Shown here: positions 41,103 to 61,737 of the stretch, piece after piece
How positions within the stretch are numbered: the first letter of the stretch is position 1
Layout of the letters: each line of letters starts with the position of its first letter
Origin: Chloroherpetonaceae bacterium
Lineage (GTDB): Bacteria; Bacteroidota; Chlorobiia; Chlorobiales; Thermochlorobacteraceae
DNA length: 64,000 nucleotides
Reading direction: 5' to 3'
Assembly (NCBI GenBank): GCA_033763895.1
Contig: JANRJQ010000010.1
Coordinates: 562,146 to 626,145, forward strand
Program-made: the position numbers and the translations under genes
Notes under the pieces: generated by a model
Told to the model about the DNA's origin: nothing
Seen by the model: the letters and a program-made list of their open reading frames with translations, nothing else
The model's database searches: none

Positions 41103-43205
41103 TTGAATGACCAACCTAATTCGTTTTTTGTACCGATGCGCAACAAAGTGCCAAAAAACCTTGAAGAAGCTAAGGTTGAGATTTCCCGTTTGAACCACTT
41201 TTCTTGGGAAATGAGGCTTGAGTCGCCATTGAAAGGCATTGAGTGTGCTTTAGAAGCTTATGAATTGGCGCTGCAATGGAATCATGTATCCGGTATTGCT
41301 GAATCTCTCCGAAATCAAGGTGTTCTCAGTTGGTTCCTCTCCGATTATAATAATGCCCTTGTAAAACTGTTAAGCGGATTAAACTATGCACAAGCAAGTG
41401 ATGATAAATCGCTTGAATCTTCAATTCTTAACTGGCTTGGAAATACGCATGAGCGCTTGGGAAACAATGCAGCGGCTTTTGACTATCACTTGAAAAGTTT
41501 AAACCTTCGAGTTTTACTTAATGATAAAATCGGTCAAGCGGCTTCCCTCAATAATCTAGGAAATCTGCATTGGAGAATGTCCGACTTCGCAACAGCCCTC
41601 GACTATTATCAACAAGCCTTAAGAATTCGTGAAGTCAGTAATGATAAAATTACCATTGGGGCTTCGCTTAATAATATTACTGTTGTTTACTTTCATTTGG
41701 GGCAATACCAAAATGCCTTAAATTATGCTGAAAGAAGTATCGCTTTTTTTGAAGATTCAATTGATAAACGCGGTTTTGCAAATTCACTTAGCAACTACGC
41801 TCTTTGCTTGCAGAAATCGGGTAAACTTGAAGAGTCTCTTGAATATGCATCCCGTTCTTTGGAATTAAGAAGAGTTATTGGCGATCGGCAAGGTGAGGCA
41901 AATTCCCTCAACAACATTGGGCTTGTTTTGCTTCAGAAAAAACAATTCGATGAAGCACTTGAAAAATTTCAGGAAAGCCTTGCTATCACAGAGAAAATCG
42001 GGGATAGATTTTTTGAGGCAGAAACTTTAATCAATATTGCCTCAGTTTATTCTTCCCGAGCTGCTATATCCTCTGAAATGAAACCCACAAAAGAGTCTTA
42101 TGTGACGGATGATTTAATAGACTTTTCGACCGTCGGCCCTTTAGGACTTTTTGACCATCATCTTTTGAAATTTGCCGTTGAGTATATCGAAAAGGCATTA
42201 AAGGTTGCGGAAGAAATTCAATCCAAGCAATGGATCTATGAATCTTATCTCGCACTCTCAAAATGTTATAAAATGCTCGGCAATACAATGGAGGCTTTGA
42301 GAACTTATAAAGCATATCATGAAGTAAGGGAATTGGTATTTAGTGAGCGAAACGAGGAAAAGATAAAAGTGTTGAACGTGAAGTTTGAAATGGAACGCAA
42401 AAAAAAGGAAGCGGAAATTTATCGACTTAAAAATGTAGAACTTGCCAAAAAGAATTTAGAGTTGCAAAATGCAAAAGCCCTAAGAAGTGAATTTTTGAAA
42501 ATTGCTGCGACTGACCTCAAAGATCCTCTTGCTACTATTACCAGTTATGCTGACATGTTATCAGAGTCGATTGATCAATTCGATCCGAGATACCCCGGCA
42601 GAATCAAGCATTTATCAATCAATATGCTTGATTTAATTAATCGGCTCTTGCGAACCGGAATGCTCGATAGTGGGAACATTTCATTCACTCGAACCCCGAT
42701 CTCGCTTTTTGATTTAACCATCATGATTTTAGAATCTTACCGAAATATTGCGCAAGAAAAAAGGATAGAAATTGAAATAAAAAATTTGACTAAAAATCTT
42801 GCGATTTGCGATGAGGAAAGAACTGCTGAGATTATTCAAAATCTCTTATCGAATGCCATCAAGTTTTCTTATCCCGAAAAAAAGATCCTTTTTGAAATTT
42901 TTGACTTTGATCCCTACCGGCCCGGTGTTCATGCCATAACAAAAATTCTTGCTGATTTAGATTTGATTGCACTTTCAATTACCGATGAAGGTCAAGGTTT
43001 TTCAGAAGAGGATAAAAAAAATCTATTCAAAAGATTCCAACGCCTTTCATCCGAACCAACAGGTGGCGAACCCTCCGTAGGGTTAGGTTTAGCGATCTCA
43101 AAGGAACTTGCAGAAAAACAAGGAGGCACACTTTACCTTTATAGTGAAGGAAAAAATGCTGGCGCCACTTTTACATTGCTCTTGCCAAAATTTCAAACAA
43201 ATTAA
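41103..43205 (+). CDS. TPR-containing histidine-kinase-like protein lacking the phosphoacceptor His
   Basis: The frame begins with a TTG (700 residues); the ATG 11 codons on (41136) is a possible start. Residues about 20-440 carry TPRs (SLNNLGNLHWRMSDFATALDYYQQALRIRE). A coiled coil follows (KKKEAEIYRLKNVELAKK). The dimerisation segment reads AATDLKDPLATITSYADM: T470 takes the place of the histidine in the HDLKNP-type box. The ATPase domain looks complete: N-box NLLSNAIKFS, DEGQGFSEED, FKRFQRLS, GLGLAISKEL. So it can bind ATP but cannot autophosphorylate in the usual way. No membrane helix or signal peptide. The next gene is a paralogue 44 nt away. Confidence 0.85.
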   Translation: MNDQPNSFFVPMRNKVPKNLEEAKVEISRLNHFSWEMRLESPLKGIECALEAYELALQWNHVSGIAESLRNQGVLSWFLSDYNNALVKLLSGLNYAQASDDKSLESSILNWLGNTHERLGNNAAAFDYHLKSLNLRVLLNDKIGQAASLNNLGNLHWRMSDFATALDYYQQALRIREVSNDKITIGASLNNITVVYFHLGQYQNALNYAERSIAFFEDSIDKRGFANSLSNYALCLQKSGKLEESLEYASRSLELRRVIGDRQGEANSLNNIGLVLLQKKQFDEALEKFQESLAITEKIGDRFFEAETLINIASVYSSRAAISSEMKPTKESYVTDDLIDFSTVGPLGLFDHHLLKFAVEYIEKALKVAEEIQSKQWIYESYLALSKCYKMLGNTMEALRTYKAYHEVRELVFSERNEEKIKVLNVKFEMERKKKEAEIYRLKNVELAKKNLELQNAKALRSEFLKIAATDLKDPLATITSYADMLSESIDQFDPRYPGRIKHLSINMLDLINRLLRTGMLDSGNISFTRTPISLFDLTIMILESYRNIAQEKRIEIEIKNLTKNLAICDEERTAEIIQNLLSNAIKFSYPEKKILFEIFDFDPYRPGVHAITKILADLDLIALSITDEGQGFSEEDKKNLFKRFQRLSSEPTGGEPSVGLGLAISKELAEKQGGTLYLYSEGKNAGATFTLLLPKFQTN

Positions 43206-43249: not shown

Positions 43250-45112
43250 ATGATAAACGAATTTGACGACCTATCCCCCGAATTTGAGCCTAAAATCCAA
43301 TCAAGAAGTGAAACCGATAAATCAACGGATTCCCAAATAAAATCACTCTTAAAAAAGGCGTGGGAAAATAGAAATCATGATGTGCACAAAGCGCTCCAAA
43401 TTGCAATTGATGCACTTACTCTGAGCGAAAGGTCGAAAGATCAAATGAGTGAAGCCCAAAGCCACAAAATGATTGGTCATTGCAGAATGTGGCTTTCTGA
43501 AAACGAAAATGCCTTAGAAGCATTTGGAAAGGCTTATGCCATTTTTGAAACCCTCTCTGAAATTGAATACACGGCCAATATTCTCTACGAAATGGGCTGT
43601 ATCTATGCCAAGTTAGATGATTTCCCGAATGCACTCAATTGCCACCTTAAAAGCTTTGGAATATGTCAAACCCACCATTTGGCTTCCGGTGAAGCCTTGT
43701 CACTTAGTGGCATCGGTTATGTTTATGAAAACATGAATGATTATGAAAAGGCCATCGACTATTACTCGAGAAGTTTAGACATTTGGGAGCGGCTTGGTGA
43801 TAAATGGGGTCAAGCCAATTCGTTGCAAAACCTTGGCGTTATATTATTTGAGCGGCTTTCTGCACCCGAAGAAGCGTTGTTGAATTTTATGAAAAGCTTG
43901 GAGTTTACACTCGAAATCGGGGATGTTCGTGGCACAGCAAAAGCATTCTTTTTAATTGGTGAAGTCAAAAGAATGCAGTATAAATTTGAGGAAGCCTTTC
44001 AAAGTTATGAACGAGCAACGGTGATTGCTGAAAACTCCGGTGAGCGATTCATTCAAACACAGGTTCAAATCAGTATTGGGAAAACGCATTTGGCCGAAAA
44101 TAATACAGCACAAGCCATTAAGGTTCTAAAGTCGGCGCTTTCAATTGCTGAATCCCTTAAATCAAGAGACTTGAAATCGAAATGTCATAAAACTTTATCC
44201 GAAGCCTTTCGGATTCAAAGTGATTACCAAAAGGCCTATGAGCATTATGTGTCTTATCATACTTTTCGTGACGAAATTCATAGTGAAGAAACGGAACGAA
44301 GAATAAAAAACTTACAAGTAAGACTTGAGACGGAACGAGCGCAACAAAAAGCAGAAGTCTATCGATTGAAAAATTTTGATCTGGCACAAGCAAATTCCGA
44401 ATTACATTTGCTTAAAGAGTCGCTTGAAGAAGCCAATAAAGCGCTTCTCAAAGCATCGAAGCTTAAGACTGAGCTTTTAGGAATTGCCGCAACAGAACTT
44501 CAAGAGCCAATTCATTCAATTTTAAATTTTTCTAAAAGCTTGCTCGAGCCAAGCCAGATTGCGGTGAAAAGAGAACAATTGTTAAAACTGATTTATGATC
44601 TTTCTCTTAGGATGTCTCATATCATCACTAAACTTTTGAATGATGAATCGATTCGTGACGGAACTGTTAAGCTCTCCCTAAGACCGTTAGGAATTTCAAA
44701 TTTACTGAAGCTAACTTACTTGAAATATCAAGCAATTGCTGAAAAGGAAGAAGCCAATGTCATTTTTGAACTAGAACCCGACCTGATGTTGCAAGGTGAC
44801 GAAGATTTAATCAAAGATGCCTTAGAAAGAATTTTGCAAAGATTCACACAGATGTTAAAATTGAAGCAAGTATTAAAAATATCAGCAAAAGAACTGCCTT
44901 CAATGTCCATTCAACTTGGTTTTACGCTTGTGAATTCTATTCGCGGGGTTCATCAAAAAAGTGAAACGAATTTGAAGACGCTTGAGGTTAACCAAGAGTT
45001 CCGTTCCGATGAAGTGACAAAAAGAATCATTTACCTTCATAAGGGAATGATTGAAGAAGGTCAGACCGATGAGGAAATAAAACTTCTCGTTACTTTCCCA
45101 AAATCTATTTAG
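43250..45112 (+). CDS. Degenerate TPR/histidine-kinase-like paralogue (pseudokinase)
   Basis: The 620-residue protein has the same design as its upstream neighbour: TPRs (GIGYVYENMNDYEKAIDYYSRSLDI), coiled coil, dimerisation segment. The histidine position is T415 in AATELQEPIHSIL. The ATPase domain is also degraded: the N-box reads ALERILQRFTQML, no DxGxGF or GLGL motif can be found, and the end is short (KLLVTFPKSI). It is therefore probably catalytically dead and acts as a scaffold or heterodimer partner. Cytosolic by sequence. The bacilliredoxin gene follows after 27 nt. Confidence 0.78.
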   Translation: MINEFDDLSPEFEPKIQSRSETDKSTDSQIKSLLKKAWENRNHDVHKALQIAIDALTLSERSKDQMSEAQSHKMIGHCRMWLSENENALEAFGKAYAIFETLSEIEYTANILYEMGCIYAKLDDFPNALNCHLKSFGICQTHHLASGEALSLSGIGYVYENMNDYEKAIDYYSRSLDIWERLGDKWGQANSLQNLGVILFERLSAPEEALLNFMKSLEFTLEIGDVRGTAKAFFLIGEVKRMQYKFEEAFQSYERATVIAENSGERFIQTQVQISIGKTHLAENNTAQAIKVLKSALSIAESLKSRDLKSKCHKTLSEAFRIQSDYQKAYEHYVSYHTFRDEIHSEETERRIKNLQVRLETERAQQKAEVYRLKNFDLAQANSELHLLKESLEEANKALLKASKLKTELLGIAATELQEPIHSILNFSKSLLEPSQIAVKREQLLKLIYDLSLRMSHIITKLLNDESIRDGTVKLSLRPLGISNLLKLTYLKYQAIAEKEEANVIFELEPDLMLQGDEDLIKDALERILQRFTQMLKLKQVLKISAKELPSMSIQLGFTLVNSIRGVHQKSETNLKTLEVNQEFRSDEVTKRIIYLHKGMIEEGQTDEEIKLLVTFPKSI

Positions 45113-49734: not shown

Positions 49735-51291
49735 CTATTTCCTACGAAATATCTTTTGTATGAAATACGAAATCGATTTGAATTTTTCAACACCAATTTG
49801 GGTAAGTCTTGATGTCCTCTTAATAAAATCAAATTGATAACTAAACTTATACCTCAAGTTACGAAAAGGAGTTGCTAAAAATTTTGGAATATGAAAACCT
49901 GACATTTTCCAGATAAAAAAAATTCCAATGATTAATAAGAGTGAGTTTCCAATCCACATTGACACAAAAGGAGGAATAATATCTCGATCGGCGAGTTTTT
50001 CCCCTGAAATCAACGAACCCCAATAAATCATAAAGAATAGTAACGAGAATCCGGCTCCAACACCCACTCCGCCTCGCCTTGCAAGTACGCCGAGCGGCAT
50101 CCCCACAAAAACAAAAAATAAACATGCGAAGGGAATGGAGTACTTCTTATGGATTTCAACCAAATATCGATTGATTTGATTTTGTGTTGATTTATATGAA
50201 TAACACTCCCCATCAATTTGTGATAGCAAGCTTCCAACTTGTGAAGATACCGCATCGATATAAGTGGGGTAACTCTTAAAAGGAACCTTTGATAAAATAA
50301 AACCAAGTGAACTGCTTTGTTTCTCGGGGCTTGGCAGGTTTTTGCGAAAGTAAAGTGAATCCAATCGGGCGTAAGTTGCGATGCTTTTGGCAGTGTCACT
50401 AGAGTGAAGCAGTAAATGAGATGCCGCAGTATTCATCGCAATGGTCGTAAGTCTTCGATAAGTTTGAGGGTATTGGCGTTTAAGACTATCACAAATTTGC
50501 ATCATATTATTTGCTGAGAGCTCGCGGTCGCTTCGGCTCACGGTGCTTTCATCGGAGCGTGAAAATCCAAACCCATCGCCATTAAAGAGAATGACATGCT
50601 TGTCAAATTTGATTCGTTTGTAACCTGTTTGAGTATCACGGTCTAATTCATGCATCTCACCAGTATCAAGAGTCATGATGAGGTAACGATTATCTCGGCT
50701 AAACGCGAAGTCTGCTGTTTTTGCTCGAATCACTGTGTTTTTTTGAGGCGTGGTATAATCATAAATAATTATCCCATCGACCTTTGAACTGTTTTCGTAT
50801 GTTTTTTGAACAAGAATTGAATACCCTTGAATCATATCCGAAAAAACATTTTCTTCCAATCCGAAGGAAGGTTTTTTCTTGGTGATATCCATCGTCAATA
50901 CTTTTGCTAAATGATTGGCCTCGGGAAGCACCTCATTTCCAAATCGCTCAACCCCAAAAGCCAAGAGTAACCCGGCAAACAAAGGCGGAAGCATTAAACG
51001 AATGGGTGAGATCCCACCGGCTTGCATTGCCGTGATTTCAAGTGCTCCAGAAAGATTCCCAAATGCCATTAAAGAGGAAGACAGCATCCCGATTGGCGCA
51101 GCAACGACAACCATCCAAGCAAGTTGTAAAGAGAGTAATTCGATGATTAATTGAATTTCAATCCCCTTTCCAACCAATCGATCTAAAAATCTGGTCAAAT
51201 AATTGATCAGAAAAACAAACATCACAGTGAAAAATGCAAAAAGAAAAGGAGGCAATTGGGTACGAAGCAAATATCGATCGAGGATGGTCAT
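49735..51291 (-). CDS. LptF/LptG-family LPS export permease
   Basis: The 518-residue protein begins with TILDRYLLRTQLPPFLFAFF and ends with a helix pair plus cytoplasmic tail, as in the YjgP/YjgQ family. Helices lie at the start and near residues 360-450; a large periplasmic beta-jellyroll region sits between. LptF and LptG form the inner-membrane part of the LptB2FG complex that extracts LPS. The LptB ATPase is not in the window. The jellyroll is longer than in E. coli (insert around 250-340). Its start overlaps the kinase stop by 4 nt, so the two are co-translated. Confidence 0.9.
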   Translation of the reverse strand: MTILDRYLLRTQLPPFLFAFFTVMFVFLINYLTRFLDRLVGKGIEIQLIIELLSLQLAWMVVVAAPIGMLSSSLMAFGNLSGALEITAMQAGGISPIRLMLPPLFAGLLLAFGVERFGNEVLPEANHLAKVLTMDITKKKPSFGLEENVFSDMIQGYSILVQKTYENSSKVDGIIIYDYTTPQKNTVIRAKTADFAFSRDNRYLIMTLDTGEMHELDRDTQTGYKRIKFDKHVILFNGDGFGFSRSDESTVSRSDRELSANNMMQICDSLKRQYPQTYRRLTTIAMNTAASHLLLHSSDTAKSIATYARLDSLYFRKNLPSPEKQSSSLGFILSKVPFKSYPTYIDAVSSQVGSLLSQIDGECYSYKSTQNQINRYLVEIHKKYSIPFACLFFVFVGMPLGVLARRGGVGVGAGFSLLFFMIYWGSLISGEKLADRDIIPPFVSMWIGNSLLLIIGIFFIWKMSGFHIPKFLATPFRNLRYKFSYQFDFIKRTSRLTQIGVEKFKSISYFIQKIFRRK

Positions 51292-53423
51292 GAAAGGGAT
51301 TCGTTAAGACTTAAATTAGTTGGCAATTCGATGGTAAAAACAGAGCCTTTACCAATTCCTAAAGACTCCGCCTGAATCGTTCCACCGTGTAATTCAACAT
51401 AAGATTTGATAATCGAGAGCCCAAGCCCTGTAGAAATCTCCCCACCTGTCGGTTTTGCAGAAAGCTTTTGAAATTTTTTGAAAAGCAGCTCTTTTTCTTG
51501 ATGTGAAAACCCTTGACCCTCGTCTTGAACTGAAAAATAAAGGCTTTCAGATGTACGAGAAAGCCGAATGGTAATGGTTTGGTTTTCGAAAGAATACTTA
51601 ACGGCATTCGAGATGAGATTTTCAATTGATTCACGGCACTTTGATTCGTCCGCTACAATCTCGTAGGATAAGGAGGGTTCAATTATTAGAACAAGTTTCT
51701 GAGACTTCCGATCCAAAAGGATTCGATTGGTTTCAATGACGGAGTGCATCAGTGAAAGAAAATCAAATCGATTAAGAGTCAGCTTAAATACTTTATCCTT
51801 ACCATTTTGAGACTTATTGATTTCAAGTAGCGAGGAAATTAGCATTACAACATGATCGGTTGCCAATTTCATTTTCTTCAAGTAATCAAGAACTTCTTTG
51901 TCTTTAATTCGAAAACTAATCAAATCGGCATAACCTTTAATCACTTGCAATGGGTTTTTTATATCATGAATTGCGACCCCAAGAATGGCATTTCGCATTG
52001 TGTCGGTTTCAAGTAACTGAGAATTCACGGCAATGACATCTTGATAAGAGCGAAGCAAGTTTTCGTTTCGTTGACGGTAAATTTCAGCTTCTTTACGGAC
52101 TTTTTCCGTTTCAAGTTCAACGATTAGTTGTTGCGTTGACCCATTTGTGCCATTGTTCGAAAGTTCTTCTTTGAGTTGGTGATACATTTCATAGAGTAAC
52201 AATGCCTGCTCAAAATCTCCACGCATTTTTTGAATGGAATAAGCCAAGTAATAGACTTCAATTTGGAGGGGGGCAAGAGCTAAATCTGCGGAGAGATCGA
52301 GCGCTCGTTTTAGGAATAAGTTATTTTCGGATAAAAGGGTAGAATCATTTTTGTGGAGATAGATGTTGGCAAGCCCGATCAAGCTTAAAACAACCGCCTT
52401 TGTATCAAAGATTGACTCATTGATCTGCAAGCTTTGACGGTAACATTCATAAGAAGCATCGAATTTTTTTTCAAGAAAGAATACTTTTCCCAAACCAAGC
52501 AGACTTTTTCCCTCAAGTTGCAGATTACCAATTTTGCGAGCTAAACCTAAGCTTCTTTCAAAGGCAAGCTGTGCATTAAGTTGTTCTCCTAAGCCTATAT
52601 AGGCATTTCCTGTATGAAGAATGGATTGACATATTCCATACTGATGATCCAATTGTTCGAATACACTTCGGCTTCGATCATAATAGTTAATGGCATTTTC
52701 AAATTCCTTTTGCGATTCAAAGACTTCACCAATAAAACTAAGAACCTGAGCAATTTTAGATTTATAATCAACTCCCTCGAAATATTGCAGGGCTTGAATA
52801 AATGAAGCCAAGGCAGAAGAAAAATGCCCTTGAAGAAACTGAATTCTGCCAATGCCTATGCGTGCTAAAGATTCAATTTCTCGATTGCCAATACTTTTTC
52901 CAATTGATAATGCTTCAGAAAAATACTGCAACGATTCTCGATATTGGTGAAGTCGTTTCCTTACGAATCCCAATTGGATATAAGCCAACGCTACGCCGGA
53001 TTCAGAATTCGATTCTGATGCAAGGTCTTTTAATTCTAAAGCAATTTTTTCGGATGAATCGTATTCCAAAAGCATGAATTTTGTTTCGGAAATTCCCCAT
53101 AGTGCCAATAGCTGATCTTCTTTGGCGTTGCATTGTTGGAAGATAAAAAGTGCTTCATTAAAGAGTTTTAATGCCTTAAGAAAAGATCCTGTTTGTAAAT
53201 GTGATTTTGCGGAGAAGAAAAGGGCAATACCTTTACCGTATTCATATCTCAATCGGTTGGACTCTTCAAGATGGAGCTCCGATAAAAGAACCGCTTCGCG
53301 AGGGTCCGAGAGGCTTAGCAGCGAAATTAAATTTGAAATAATATCAATTTTTTCGACTTGAGTAATAGAATGGGAAGAAGGCGACTGATGGGAGAATTGA
53401 AGAGAATCAATGTTTCTTTCCAT
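51288..53423 (-). CDS. TPR-containing histidine kinase (histidine present)
   Basis: This 711-residue cytosolic protein shares the layout of the two proteins at 41-45 kb: TPRs (ALAYIQLGFVRKRLHQYRESLQYF), coiled coil (KEAEIYRQRNENLLRS), HisKA segment and ATPase domain. Here the phosphoacceptor is kept, H486 in AIHDIKNPLQVIKGYADL, and all ATPase motifs are present (ENLISNAVKYS, DEGQGFSHQE, FKKFQKLS, GLGLSII). It is therefore the candidate active kinase of the set. It overlaps the LptF/G gene by 4 nt. No response regulator adjoins; the two-receiver protein at 13.8 kb is the only one in the window. Confidence 0.88.
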   Translation of the reverse strand: MERNIDSLQFSHQSPSSHSITQVEKIDIISNLISLLSLSDPREAVLLSELHLEESNRLRYEYGKGIALFFSAKSHLQTGSFLKALKLFNEALFIFQQCNAKEDQLLALWGISETKFMLLEYDSSEKIALELKDLASESNSESGVALAYIQLGFVRKRLHQYRESLQYFSEALSIGKSIGNREIESLARIGIGRIQFLQGHFSSALASFIQALQYFEGVDYKSKIAQVLSFIGEVFESQKEFENAINYYDRSRSVFEQLDHQYGICQSILHTGNAYIGLGEQLNAQLAFERSLGLARKIGNLQLEGKSLLGLGKVFFLEKKFDASYECYRQSLQINESIFDTKAVVLSLIGLANIYLHKNDSTLLSENNLFLKRALDLSADLALAPLQIEVYYLAYSIQKMRGDFEQALLLYEMYHQLKEELSNNGTNGSTQQLIVELETEKVRKEAEIYRQRNENLLRSYQDVIAVNSQLLETDTMRNAILGVAIHDIKNPLQVIKGYADLISFRIKDKEVLDYLKKMKLATDHVVMLISSLLEINKSQNGKDKVFKLTLNRFDFLSLMHSVIETNRILLDRKSQKLVLIIEPSLSYEIVADESKCRESIENLISNAVKYSFENQTITIRLSRTSESLYFSVQDEGQGFSHQEKELLFKKFQKLSAKPTGGEISTGLGLSIIKSYVELHGGTIQAESLGIGKGSVFTIELPTNLSLNESLS

Positions 53424-57983: not shown

Positions 57984-58153
57984 ATAGTCAATTGTTCTCT
58001 AGGCGAGAATGTTTCAAGCCCTTTTTATTATCTTAAAATTACAATTTGGCAAATCAATATTCATGTCAAGTTGATTCATGATTATTTTTTAAGCATTTGC
58101 AACAGGCTTACTCAAGCTTTTATCATCAGAATAAATTTCGAAAAGACGAATTT

Positions 58154-59818
58154 ATGAAGGGATTTGGATTTGTATTACTCATCATTGCTGTATTGATTTT
58201 TGGATTAATTGTTGGAACACGGCTGCCTGATTTTATTGGTTCTGGCTTAAGTGCTAAAAACACACAAAAGTTTAATGAAGCCTTTCGATTGGTTTCGGAG
58301 CATTATGTTGATAATGTGGATAACAATGCCATTTCTGAGGGTGCAATAGAAGGAATGCTTCAAAGGCTTGACCCACACTCAGTGTATCTTTCGCCTGAAG
58401 AAGCGCGTCGCTCAAGAGAAGAATTTCAAGGCAGTTTTGAGGGAATTGGAATTCAATTTGAAATGATAAAAGATACGCTTGTCGTTATTGCCGCTTCTTC
58501 GGAAGGGCCAAGCGAAAAAGTAGGAATTCAATCCGGAGATCGAATCATCTCAATCAATGACACGAATGCTGTTGGTCTAAAAAATGATGAAATCATTCGA
58601 CGGCTTCGTGGTCCAAAAGGATCTATTGTGAAAGTGACAATCAAGCGTTCAGGTTATGATGAAGCATTGATATATAACATCAAAAGAGATAAGATTGCGA
58701 CCTACAGTGTCGATACCTACTTTATGCTCGATTCCCAAACAGGGTACATAAAAATTTCACAATTTATCGAAACAACGCATAGCGAATTTTTACAAGCTTC
58801 AACAGCGCTTAAAGAGCGAGGTATGACGCAATTGATTCTTGATCTTCGCAATAATCCCGGTGGCATTTTGCAACAAGCAATAAAAATATCAGATGAATTT
58901 TTAGGTGCTTCACAAAAAATTGTATCACAAAGAGGGCGAAGTATTCCAGCGCAAACGGATTACTCCGAGGCAGGGCAAGCATTTGAATCGATTCCATTGA
59001 TTGTACTTGTTAATCGTGGAAGTGCTTCAGCTTCTGAAATTGTGGCCGGAGCAATTCAAGATCACGACCGCGGGTTGATTGTCGGTGAAACGACTTTTGG
59101 CAAGGGGCTCGTTCAAAGACCCTATGAATTGACCGATGGTGCGATTTTGCGCGTAACCATCGCAAAGTATTATACGCCATCAGGAAGGCTAATACAGCGA
59201 CCGTTTTATGAAGGTGAGAGCCGCCGTGATTATTACGAAGAAGCAGATCGCTATGCTAAAATTGATGAACAAGCGATTGCGATTGCAAGAAATCAAAATT
59301 TGGAATTGATTGAATCGGCACCTCTAATTGTCCCTGATTCTGCCCATAAAGCCTATCGTACCGACGCAGGGCGGCTCGTTCTTGAAGGTGGTGGCATTAC
59401 CCCGGATTACTTCGTTTGGTCGGATTCCATTACAAGGTTTTATCAGGCAGTTCGGTCGAAACGCTTGTTCAGTGAATTTGCGCTTTCTTATTTGGAGAAG
59501 TATCCGGAATTGCGAAAAAAATTTATGGCCAAATTGCCATCAAAAATAGAAGAGTTCTCTAACGAATTTGTTATTGAAAGTCAAGATATTCAATCATTTC
59601 TTTCACTGACAACCGACAATGGAATTGCTTTTGATTCTACTGAATTTGTGAAAGATGAGCGTTATTTGTTGGGGGCAATAAAATCTGAAATAGCCGGTCA
59701 AATTTGGGGTTCAAAGGCAAGAGCCGAACTCCTCATCCGAAACGACAATGTGTTAAGGTCTGCGATGACCCTATTTCCAAAAGCAACCGCGTTTGCCCAA
59801 AACTCAAGAACTAAATGA
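58154..59818 (+). CDS. C-terminal processing peptidase (S41 family)
   Basis: I use the ATG at 58154 (554 residues), which puts a signal/anchor helix (GFVLLIIAVLIFGLIVGTRL) at the N-terminus. A PDZ domain (about 80-165: IVIAASSEGPSEKVGIQSGDRI) is followed by the protease core: VLVNRGSASASEIVAGAIQD with the catalytic Ser and TTFGKGLVQRPYE with the catalytic Lys. The last 150 residues are a family-typical extension. Ctp enzymes trim periplasmic proteins, and in phototrophs the D1 protein. A sigma70-like TTGCAA-18-TATCAT lies upstream. It ends 8 bp into the convergent kinase gene. Confidence 0.93.
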   Translation: MKGFGFVLLIIAVLIFGLIVGTRLPDFIGSGLSAKNTQKFNEAFRLVSEHYVDNVDNNAISEGAIEGMLQRLDPHSVYLSPEEARRSREEFQGSFEGIGIQFEMIKDTLVVIAASSEGPSEKVGIQSGDRIISINDTNAVGLKNDEIIRRLRGPKGSIVKVTIKRSGYDEALIYNIKRDKIATYSVDTYFMLDSQTGYIKISQFIETTHSEFLQASTALKERGMTQLILDLRNNPGGILQQAIKISDEFLGASQKIVSQRGRSIPAQTDYSEAGQAFESIPLIVLVNRGSASASEIVAGAIQDHDRGLIVGETTFGKGLVQRPYELTDGAILRVTIAKYYTPSGRLIQRPFYEGESRRDYYEEADRYAKIDEQAIAIARNQNLELIESAPLIVPDSAHKAYRTDAGRLVLEGGGITPDYFVWSDSITRFYQAVRSKRLFSEFALSYLEKYPELRKKFMAKLPSKIEEFSNEFVIESQDIQSFLSLTTDNGIAFDSTEFVKDERYLLGAIKSEIAGQIWGSKARAELLIRNDNVLRSAMTLFPKATAFAQNSRTK

Positions 59819-60503
59819 ATTGAGACGCGAGAATCACTGCCCCCGGGATTAAAAAATTATCCACTTCCTTGGGGCTAACAGCTTCTGCAATTGTGGCGAT
59901 TAGTGTGATGAAACAAATTCGTATTAGATTGAAATCAGTTGGGATAATCCACCACACAAAAAATAACGCTGCCCCAAAACCAAAAAGAAAAACTGACAAA
60001 CTTCCTTCAATACTTTTTGGGCTTAATATTGCGTATTTCATTTTTCCATAGCGAGACCCGATAAGCGGCGCTACTCCGTCTCCCCAGCCAAGAACAGCCA
60101 TTGCCACAACGCCTTCAAAAGACTTATAAAAAAAAGTTCCGCAAATTGTTCCTACAATAACAAAGAAAAGAGGGCCTTTCAAGAGTTCATGTGGGTTTCC
60201 GGTGCGGGTCATCGTTCGAACGGCTTCATCGTCGGGGCCGGCCGTCAATCCTTTTAAGGTTAAAAGTACAATCCATAGCACATAGATGCCGACATTGAGA
60301 TATTTAGTCCAATGACCATCATCAAAAAAAGGGATAAAGATGATCAATGTTCCCGCGCCAATATGTGTGATTTTTCGACTGATATCTTGAGGCAAACCAT
60401 AACGCTTTACCAAAAAATCCATCAATGCCACAAGGCTAAACACATAAATGAATGTTATGGTGCAAAACAGCACGTTATTCCATAATGGCGATATCCCTGT
60501 CAT
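59811..60503 (-). CDS. Isoprenoid-alcohol kinase-like membrane protein (phytol/farnesol/dolichol kinase family)
   Basis: This 230-residue protein has about seven helices and the CDP-alcohol/dolichol-kinase pattern: YGLPQDISRKITHIGAGTLI, GLTAGPDDEAVRTMTRTGN-like loop, AVLGWGDGVAPLIGSRYGK and KSIEGSLSVFLFG. These are the marks of the VTE5/VTE6/farnesol-kinase branch, which makes phytyl or farnesyl phosphate. It follows the BChl-synthase homologue by 22 nt, so a role in supplying or recycling the chlorophyll side chain is likely but not proven. A CDP-diglyceride synthase is the other possibility. Its 3' end overlaps the protease gene. Confidence 0.7.
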   Translation of the reverse strand: MTGISPLWNNVLFCTITFIYVFSLVALMDFLVKRYGLPQDISRKITHIGAGTLIIFIPFFDDGHWTKYLNVGIYVLWIVLLTLKGLTAGPDDEAVRTMTRTGNPHELLKGPLFFVIVGTICGTFFYKSFEGVVAMAVLGWGDGVAPLIGSRYGKMKYAILSPKSIEGSLSVFLFGFGAALFFVWWIIPTDFNLIRICFITLIATIAEAVSPKEVDNFLIPGAVILASQFI

Positions 60504-60525
60504 TGATGAGAATAGAATTGGTTAA

Positions 60526-61527
60526 TTAACGTTGAGCAATAAAAATTGAAGCACCTATCACATTGAGCACATAAAGCCCATTATTTACAACCAAATATCG
60601 AAGAAAAGTATTGTGTTCTTTACGGTCACTTTTACCAATGACATTTCTTAATCCGGTTTGATGAACGGCCGCATTAATGGCTTGAGCGCCGTTTTGAGGG
60701 TCTCGGTAAAGAAGGACTTGCATGATAAATATTAGGATGAAAGAAACTAGAGAAAACCAAAACATAAAGGTAAATCCCCATTGATGCATTAAGGTGACGA
60801 ACCAAATCAAAGGGATATCGATTATTAAAAAAGAAACGAGGTAAGTGTTTTTAACACCGATCATTATTGGAAGCGATTTCAATCCTTGCGATTTATCTCC
60901 TTCAATTGATTTGAAATCATTCAAGAATATCAATCCAATTGCGACAAAGGTATTGATTAAAGCCATTGCCAAAACCTCAGTTCTTAATTCCGTGTAAATC
61001 AGATTGCCCGAAACCCAAGTGATAAAGCTATAACTCAAGCCTACAGCCGGAGCGGAAGTCAGAACATTACGCTTTAATTTGAAGGGGGGGGCAGAATAAA
61101 TGAATCCCATTAATAAGCCCAATGAGAAGATAAAAAATAGTGTGATACCGCGCCTACCGCCAATTAATATCGATAAATAAATTCCTAGCGCTACCGAAAT
61201 CGCTGCTACAATGCACCAATTCCAAAATGCTTCTTTGGGAGTTAACCTGCCGGAAGGAATAGGACGAGAGGGTTCGTTGATTTGATCAAGATCGCGGTCA
61301 AAATAATCATTGACAGATTGGCTAAAGCCTGTGCCTAATGGGCCGAAAAGCAAAGCCAAAAGGGCTAAATATCCTAAGTGTTCCGTTGTAAGTGCCATTT
61401 GACCTGAAGCGATCGCACCGCAAATAATACCTTGTAATACACCAACCCAAGTGATTGGATCTAAAAGTTCAATATGGGCTTTTAGTTTTTCGGTAAATCC
61501 ACCGGAACTTCGGTTGATTTGGTTCAT
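60526..61527 (-). CDS. Bacteriochlorophyll/chlorophyll synthase-like prenyltransferase (BchG/ChlG/BchK type)
   Basis: The ATG at 61527 (334 residues) is preferred to a TTG seven codons before. UbiA-type enzymes attach polyprenyl chains inside the membrane; this one has about eight helices and both Asp-rich motifs: NDYFDRDLDQINEPSRPIPS with the chlorophyll-synthase INEPxRPIPSG signature and NDFKSIEGDKSQGLKSLP. These pieces are specific to BchG/ChlG/BchK, which esterify chlorophyllides with phytol, geranylgeraniol or farnesol. Which of the three it is cannot be settled by reading. It implies a phototrophic host. Same transcript as the kinase-like gene. Confidence 0.85.
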   Translation of the reverse strand: MNQINRSSGGFTEKLKAHIELLDPITWVGVLQGIICGAIASGQMALTTEHLGYLALLALLFGPLGTGFSQSVNDYFDRDLDQINEPSRPIPSGRLTPKEAFWNWCIVAAISVALGIYLSILIGGRRGITLFFIFSLGLLMGFIYSAPPFKLKRNVLTSAPAVGLSYSFITWVSGNLIYTELRTEVLAMALINTFVAIGLIFLNDFKSIEGDKSQGLKSLPIMIGVKNTYLVSFLIIDIPLIWFVTLMHQWGFTFMFWFSLVSFILIFIMQVLLYRDPQNGAQAINAAVHQTGLRNVIGKSDRKEHNTFLRYLVVNNGLYVLNVIGASIFIAQR

Positions 61528-61688
61528 TTTTGAATTCTCACTGAGCAAGGATGTTGGGTAATCACGTTCTAAAATTAAATCCCTATACCCTCATTTTACC
61601 GAAAGTTACAAATATGACGGGCAATCAAAAAGGAAAATTTACAGTGTGTGCAAGTTGATTTGGTAAAGTAAAGGCTTTTAAAACGTAG

Positions 61689-61696
61689 TATATTTG
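61689..61696 (+). promoter_or_regulatory. -7-like box upstream of the glycosyltransferase gene
   Basis: TATATTTG fits TAnnTTTG and lies 41 nt before the GTG start. A -33 TTG at the right distance is not seen. Confidence 0.3.
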
Positions 61697-61737
61697 ATGA
61701 AGCACTTAAATTTTGAATTTCTAAAAGAAATTTCTTT

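Follow-up and report, generated by a model that had tools for sequence, protein, structure and literature searches.

The minus-strand gene pair at 59811 to 61527 of the window (the whole stretch of 64,000 nucleotides analysed here) raises the question of whether the bacteriochlorophyll (BChl) c synthase of green bacteria is accompanied by an enzyme that activates free alcohols for esterification with the pigment. Exogenous alcohols are incorporated into BChl c by C. tepidum and Chloroflexus (PMC7242693, PMC9316378), and in C. tepidum the fed alcohols that turn up as tails are very diverse, with diols and halogenated or perfluorinated chains among them (PMC7242693, its references 345-349). (B)Chl synthases, however, take prenyl diphosphates, and free alcohols are used with the kinase of plant etioplasts and not in E. 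coli lysates (PMC9066304). Since fed alcohols nevertheless reach BChl c, something must phosphorylate them twice. The open-access reviews consulted name no activating kinase and put the use of fed alcohols down to a broad specificity of BchK.

The gene pair and its products

Both minus-strand ORFs were found where an earlier note on this DNA had placed them, with the synthase ORF ending at 60526 and the ATG of the kinase gene at 60503. The features of the locus are:

60526..61527, minus strand: bchK, BChl c synthase (UbiA family), assigned by NCBIfam NF009058 and by its tree clade with other Chlorobiales BchK
60504..60525, minus strand: intergenic gap of 22 nt from the bchK stop to the kinase start, without terminator
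59811..60503, minus strand: predicted VTE5/FOLK-type CTP-dependent prenol (alcohol) kinase, 230 aa, probable multi-helix membrane protein, assigned by its orthologues, the RKxxH clamp and its distinctness from CdsA
61549..61737, minus strand: region upstream of the pair, presumed promoter region

Two starts are possible for bchK, TTG at 61548 or ATG at 61527. The pair is flanked upstream by a divergent glycosyltransferase-like gene (61738 onwards, plus strand) and downstream by a convergent gene for a CtpA-like protease (58097-59818, plus strand), which overlaps the end of the kinase gene by 8 nt. Because both neighbours are oppositely oriented, a unit that includes the pair can hold no more than these two genes. 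The minus strand showed neither a terminator-like site at the pair nor a sigma-70 match in the upstream region; bchK and the kinase gene presumably share a transcript.

The synthase matches the NCBIfam model of BChl c synthase (NF009058) with 467 bits (E 2.3e-140), slightly under the curated cut-off of 494 bits, versus 250 bits for ChlG (NF005742) and 246 bits for BchG-type synthases. In the tree it (P0002) groups with the BchK proteins of other Chlorobiales (98/98), and the genome's two remaining (B)Chl synthases (L002/L003) stand apart. Judged by these matches, the product of 60526-61527 is BchK, not BchG or ChlG, and its predicted role is the esterification of BChlide c with a prenyl diphosphate. 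The chlorophyll-synthase signature that the earlier note had read in this UbiA protein is thus borne out and sharpened to one enzyme. Overall, 8 UbiA proteins are encoded in the genome: besides BchK, two are ChlG/BchG-type (B)Chl synthases, and the remainder include heme o synthase and MenA. The same complement of three (B)Chl synthases is reported for C. tepidum (PMC7242693). BchK of Chlorobaculum tepidum belongs to the same family and clade and is about 50% identical to that of the window. The genome further encodes FMO (675 bits) and chlorosome protein CsmA (Bac_chlorC, 91 bits), which identifies it as the genome of a chlorosome phototroph within the Chlorobiales; the absence of any photosynthesis gene, which the earlier note had considered, does not hold.

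The kinase-like protein of 230 aa is recognised by no Pfam or NCBIfam family. Its orthologues across the Chlorobiales are 54-66% identical, and the clamp R43-K44-x-x-H47 is kept without exception, by 66/66 orthologues, by 20/20 cyanobacterial relatives and by 6/6 fusion-protein domains. Further residues are almost invariant among the orthologues (D142/G149, the motif KSxEGS, E207 and DN215-216), with D142 retained in 65/66 and G149, E166, G167, E207, D215 and N216 in 66/66; the putative catalytic-type residues of the window kinase are intact. An AlphaFold2 model consists mostly of long helices and is of medium confidence (pLDDT 71.6, alignment of only 5 sequences), and its Foldseek comparison with the PDB yielded no significant match; for these two reasons no claim on the fold is made. 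A PDB sequence search gave no relevant match, and no relatives were found in the viral contigs searched. By sequence, the product of 59811-60503 is a VTE5/FOLK-type putative prenol kinase, an enzyme class that is already known. The VTE5-type phytol or farnesol kinase homologue that the earlier note had recognised 22 nt downstream of the synthase is thereby upheld by the ORFs, the invariant clamp and the separation from CdsA. Its activity, its substrate, its nucleotide (CTP, by analogy with the family), the order of the two kinases discussed below and the physiological role are inferred.

Conservation of the pair and occurrence outside it

Among 61 Chlorobiales genomes surveyed, with BchK counted by full-length score, BchK and the kinase were each detected in 59, and in 58 the two genes are adjacent on the same strand with bchK first. 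The 23 genomes in which bchK is duplicated nevertheless carry a single kinase gene, adjoining one bchK. Two of the three deviations are draft artefacts: a bchK fragment (84% identical) at a contig end marks an assembly break inside the pair in G202, so that joint loss of both genes was rejected there, and in G205 a contig begins inside the kinase gene. The pair is also carried by a genome of 2,154,946 bases (G106), presumably Chlorobaculum tepidum TLS, with a gap of about 130 nt compared to 22 nt in the window. As the gap measures about 130-150 nt in some Chlorobiaceae, co-transcription is unsure in these. The pair, which the earlier note had treated as a trait of this bacterium, is indeed present there but is general in Chlorobiales and not special to the organism of the window.

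The pair belongs to a long conserved block, MiaB-bchK-kinase-LpxH-like-HisG, in families f2 and f3. This block by itself would prove little on coupling, and its being kept whole would suit an adjacency passively inherited in a slowly rearranging region, without functional meaning. Such passive inheritance is very improbable, since in family f1, which includes the window, the block has been dissolved in several ways and the pair has stayed. Its settings there comprise the glycosyltransferase and CtpA-like genes of the window, TGase-like, Uma2-like and MiaE genes (G079, partly G204 and G205), a MenA-like neighbour (G133) and others. The adjacency is far beyond chance and is seen in several unrelated neighbourhoods; its persistence while the flanking genes change completely between families is good evidence and argues for a functional coupling of bchK and the kinase. 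Conservation of a passive block was rejected on the same grounds.

The sole real exception is the finished, single-contig genome G005 (3,293,456 bases), which we take to be Chloroherpeton thalassium. It has bchK and no kinase; the order MiaB, BchK, LpxH-like, HisG, Mog, ArsA is kept with only the kinase missing, and tblastn found no remnant of a kinase pseudogene in this genome. The clean absence between bchK and the LpxH-like gene (L126:6903-7053) amounts to a natural knock-out. BchK hence does not need the kinase, which is dispensable for BChl c-type pigment, as would be expected of an accessory route.

Orthologues also occur apart from bchK. In family f9 of the same phylum they are 46-53% identical, and both loci read are away from bchK; FMO was not found in the two f9 genomes tested. 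The two orthologues (L045:6055-6738, L048:6473-7153) lie beside ssb and a gene for a SPOR-like lipoprotein, and neither has a UbiA gene next to it. Occurrence in relatives without FMO implies that the role of the kinase extends beyond pigments. A few cyanobacteria (Mastigocoleus, an uncultured one) hold copies nested among the Chlorobiales sequences; this nesting suggests transfer, by which the Chlorobiales-like kinase probably reached them. An alpha/beta hydrolase gene and a DUF2358-type gene lie near the kinase in 3/3 of the cyanobacterial loci (L009, L011, L012), and one may guess that this hydrolase is a tail-releasing esterase.

Related kinases and the proposed second phosphorylation

Four VTE5-like groups were distinguished: the window subfamily, the common cyanobacterial group, the N-terminal domain of a DUF92 fusion protein, and a distant relative of 234 aa (L053). 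A 100/98 split in the tree sets the window subfamily off from both the cyanobacterial and the fusion group. The common cyanobacterial group, to which the Synechocystis phytol kinase (ScVTE5, P74653) presumably belongs, is homologous to the window kinase and has the same catalytic-type residues; it is mostly about 24-36% identical to the window kinase and falls, together with the fusion-protein domain, in a well-supported separate group. The plant VTE5 (phytol kinase) and FOLK (farnesol kinase) share superfamily and RKxxH clamp with the window kinase. As a lead only, because the plant sequences used are unverified, VTE5/FOLK fall on the side of the window subfamily (100/98), with 117.7 and 97.4 bits against it versus 60-68 bits against the cyanobacterial type. 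If these plant sequences do group with Chlorobiales kinases and not with the common cyanobacterial group, the plastid enzyme would have an unexpected origin.

In plants, the alcohol is converted via monophosphate to diphosphate and passed to a membrane prenyltransferase, with VTE6 as second kinase (PMC9782597, PMC4737080). The plant kinases serve tocopherol or quinone synthesis, whereas the window kinase is tied by gene order to BChl c synthase. The Arg-Lys-His charged clamp was described for Plasmodium PfPolK, an enzymatically tested farnesol/geranylgeraniol kinase and multi-helix membrane protein (PMC10849223), and R43-K44-x-x-H47 of the window kinase matches it (PMC10849223). Unlike the window kinase, PfPolK is eukaryotic, divergent and without pigment context.

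VTE5-type kinases catalyse the first phosphorylation and VTE6 (COG1836/DUF92) the second (PMC9782597). Since a VTE5-type kinase makes the monophosphate only, a second kinase is needed, and the activation for BChl esterification that the earlier note had ascribed to the paired kinase could not be accomplished by this enzyme on its own. A VTE6-like candidate is encoded elsewhere in the genome, outside the bchK-kinase operon: a fusion protein of 539 aa (G000:C10:259587-261206; L049:14588-16207) combining a VTE5-like kinase domain with a DUF92 domain (PF01940, 226 bits), the single DUF92 in the genome. It differs in this architecture from plant VTE5/FOLK plus VTE6, the VTE6-like domain being part of a separate fusion protein. 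Long VTE5-like relatives of fusion size (mostly open frames of 520-590 aa) are present in almost all sampled Chlorobiales. The fusion may make prenyl diphosphates within one protein. Together with the bchK-linked kinase it provides the genome with candidates, by domain content, for both phosphorylation steps.

Proposed role in BChl c tail supply and competing explanations

On balance we favour the view that the two-gene unit couples the activation of tail alcohols to BChl c synthesis, with the DUF92 domain completing the diphosphate; this is a reasonably probable reading of the gene order and of the plant analogy. The bchK-linked kinase would phosphorylate free prenols, farnesol first and probably other long-chain alcohols, to the monophosphate, using CTP by analogy with the family. 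Conversion of the monophosphate to the diphosphate would fall to a second kinase, for which the DUF92/VTE6-like domain of the fusion is the likeliest candidate, and BchK would then esterify the diphosphate to bacteriochlorophyllide c (or d/e). Such a route might draw on alcohols in the environment and reclaim farnesol set free when pigment is turned over or FPP is hydrolysed. The usual tail added by BchK in green sulfur bacteria is farnesyl (PMC7242693), which makes farnesol or other exogenous alcohols likelier substrates than phytol. Of the phytol or farnesol salvage proposed in the earlier note, it stands that a phototroph pairs a VTE5/FOLK-type kinase with an enzyme that esterifies (B)Chl, and phytol becomes the less likely substrate. 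It counts against the coupling that the second VTE5-like domain, in the fusion, could do the job of the bchK-linked kinase and that DUF92 lies outside the operon, as do the f9 orthologues away from bchK and the lack of the kinase in the genome taken to be C. thalassium.

The kinase could instead be a general prenol or polyprenol salvage enzyme that feeds more than one isoprenoid pathway (menaquinone, carotenoids, BChl a tails), placed beside bchK because the antenna is the largest consumer of farnesyl or for shared regulation, with no dedicated hand-over to BchK. This is a serious rival, as the f9 orthologues, which occur in FMO-less relatives and at a distance from bchK, indicate a function broader than pigment synthesis, and the copies in a few cyanobacteria, probably gained by transfer, agree with it. 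It is nonetheless considered unlikely in view of the strict pairing with BchK, and not with BchG, ChlG, MenA or CtaB, across rearranged neighbourhoods. The same partner bears on a distinctly less probable option, a lipid kinase with a non-prenol substrate (diacylglycerol or long polyprenol): the CTP-dependent lipid kinases of the superfamily use varied lipids, the conserved motifs are superfamily-wide and no family model calls the substrate, but BchK consumes a prenyl diphosphate, and the nearest placement in the tree is with plant VTE5/FOLK (again with unverified plant sequences, hence a lead only). An identity as CDP-diacylglycerol synthase (CdsA) or as cytidylyltransferase for phospholipids, the grouping against which the earlier note had weighed its own assignment, is already disfavoured and almost certainly wrong. 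A distant likeness at fold level to 4q2e (TM 0.35, E 1.6) is not significant, and a weak PF01148 match (E 0.03) was obtained in one kinase orthologue and none in the window kinase. The true CdsA of the genome is encoded by a separate gene elsewhere (PF01148, E 8e-58), and profile comparison (hhalign) gave a probability of 0.3%, on which the CdsA identity was rejected.

Returning to the coupling of tail activation and BChl c synthesis, a wider version is advanced only tentatively and is itself rather unlikely: that a dedicated operon-encoded alcohol kinase and the DUF92 kinase let BchK of the Chlorobiales use free alcohols for antenna pigments, with C. thalassium as the natural knock-out, and that plant VTE5/FOLK descend from or are sister to the window subfamily and not the common cyanobacterial one. 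No prior report of a link between bchK and the kinase was found in the part of the open-access literature searched, and an earlier mention elsewhere is possible; likewise, no mention of the locus tags CT1991/CT1992 or of the motif ELLKGPL was found there. A link from the bchK-associated prenol kinase to alcohol incorporation into BChl c thus appears to be unreported and is easily tested, the gene beside bchK being a concrete candidate for a single-gene knock-out in a naturally transformable model organism. The proposed kinase would account for the unassigned activation that the established use of fed alcohols requires and, if the proposal is true, would explain the steering of tails and offer a handle for designed chlorosome pigments.

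Apart from the pair, the window encodes three long proteins (41103-43205, 43250-45112 and 51288-53423) in which apparent tetratricopeptide repeats precede a histidine-kinase-like C-terminus. A tandem arrangement is seen for two of them, and the ATPase part of the middle one (43250-45112) looks degenerate by eye.
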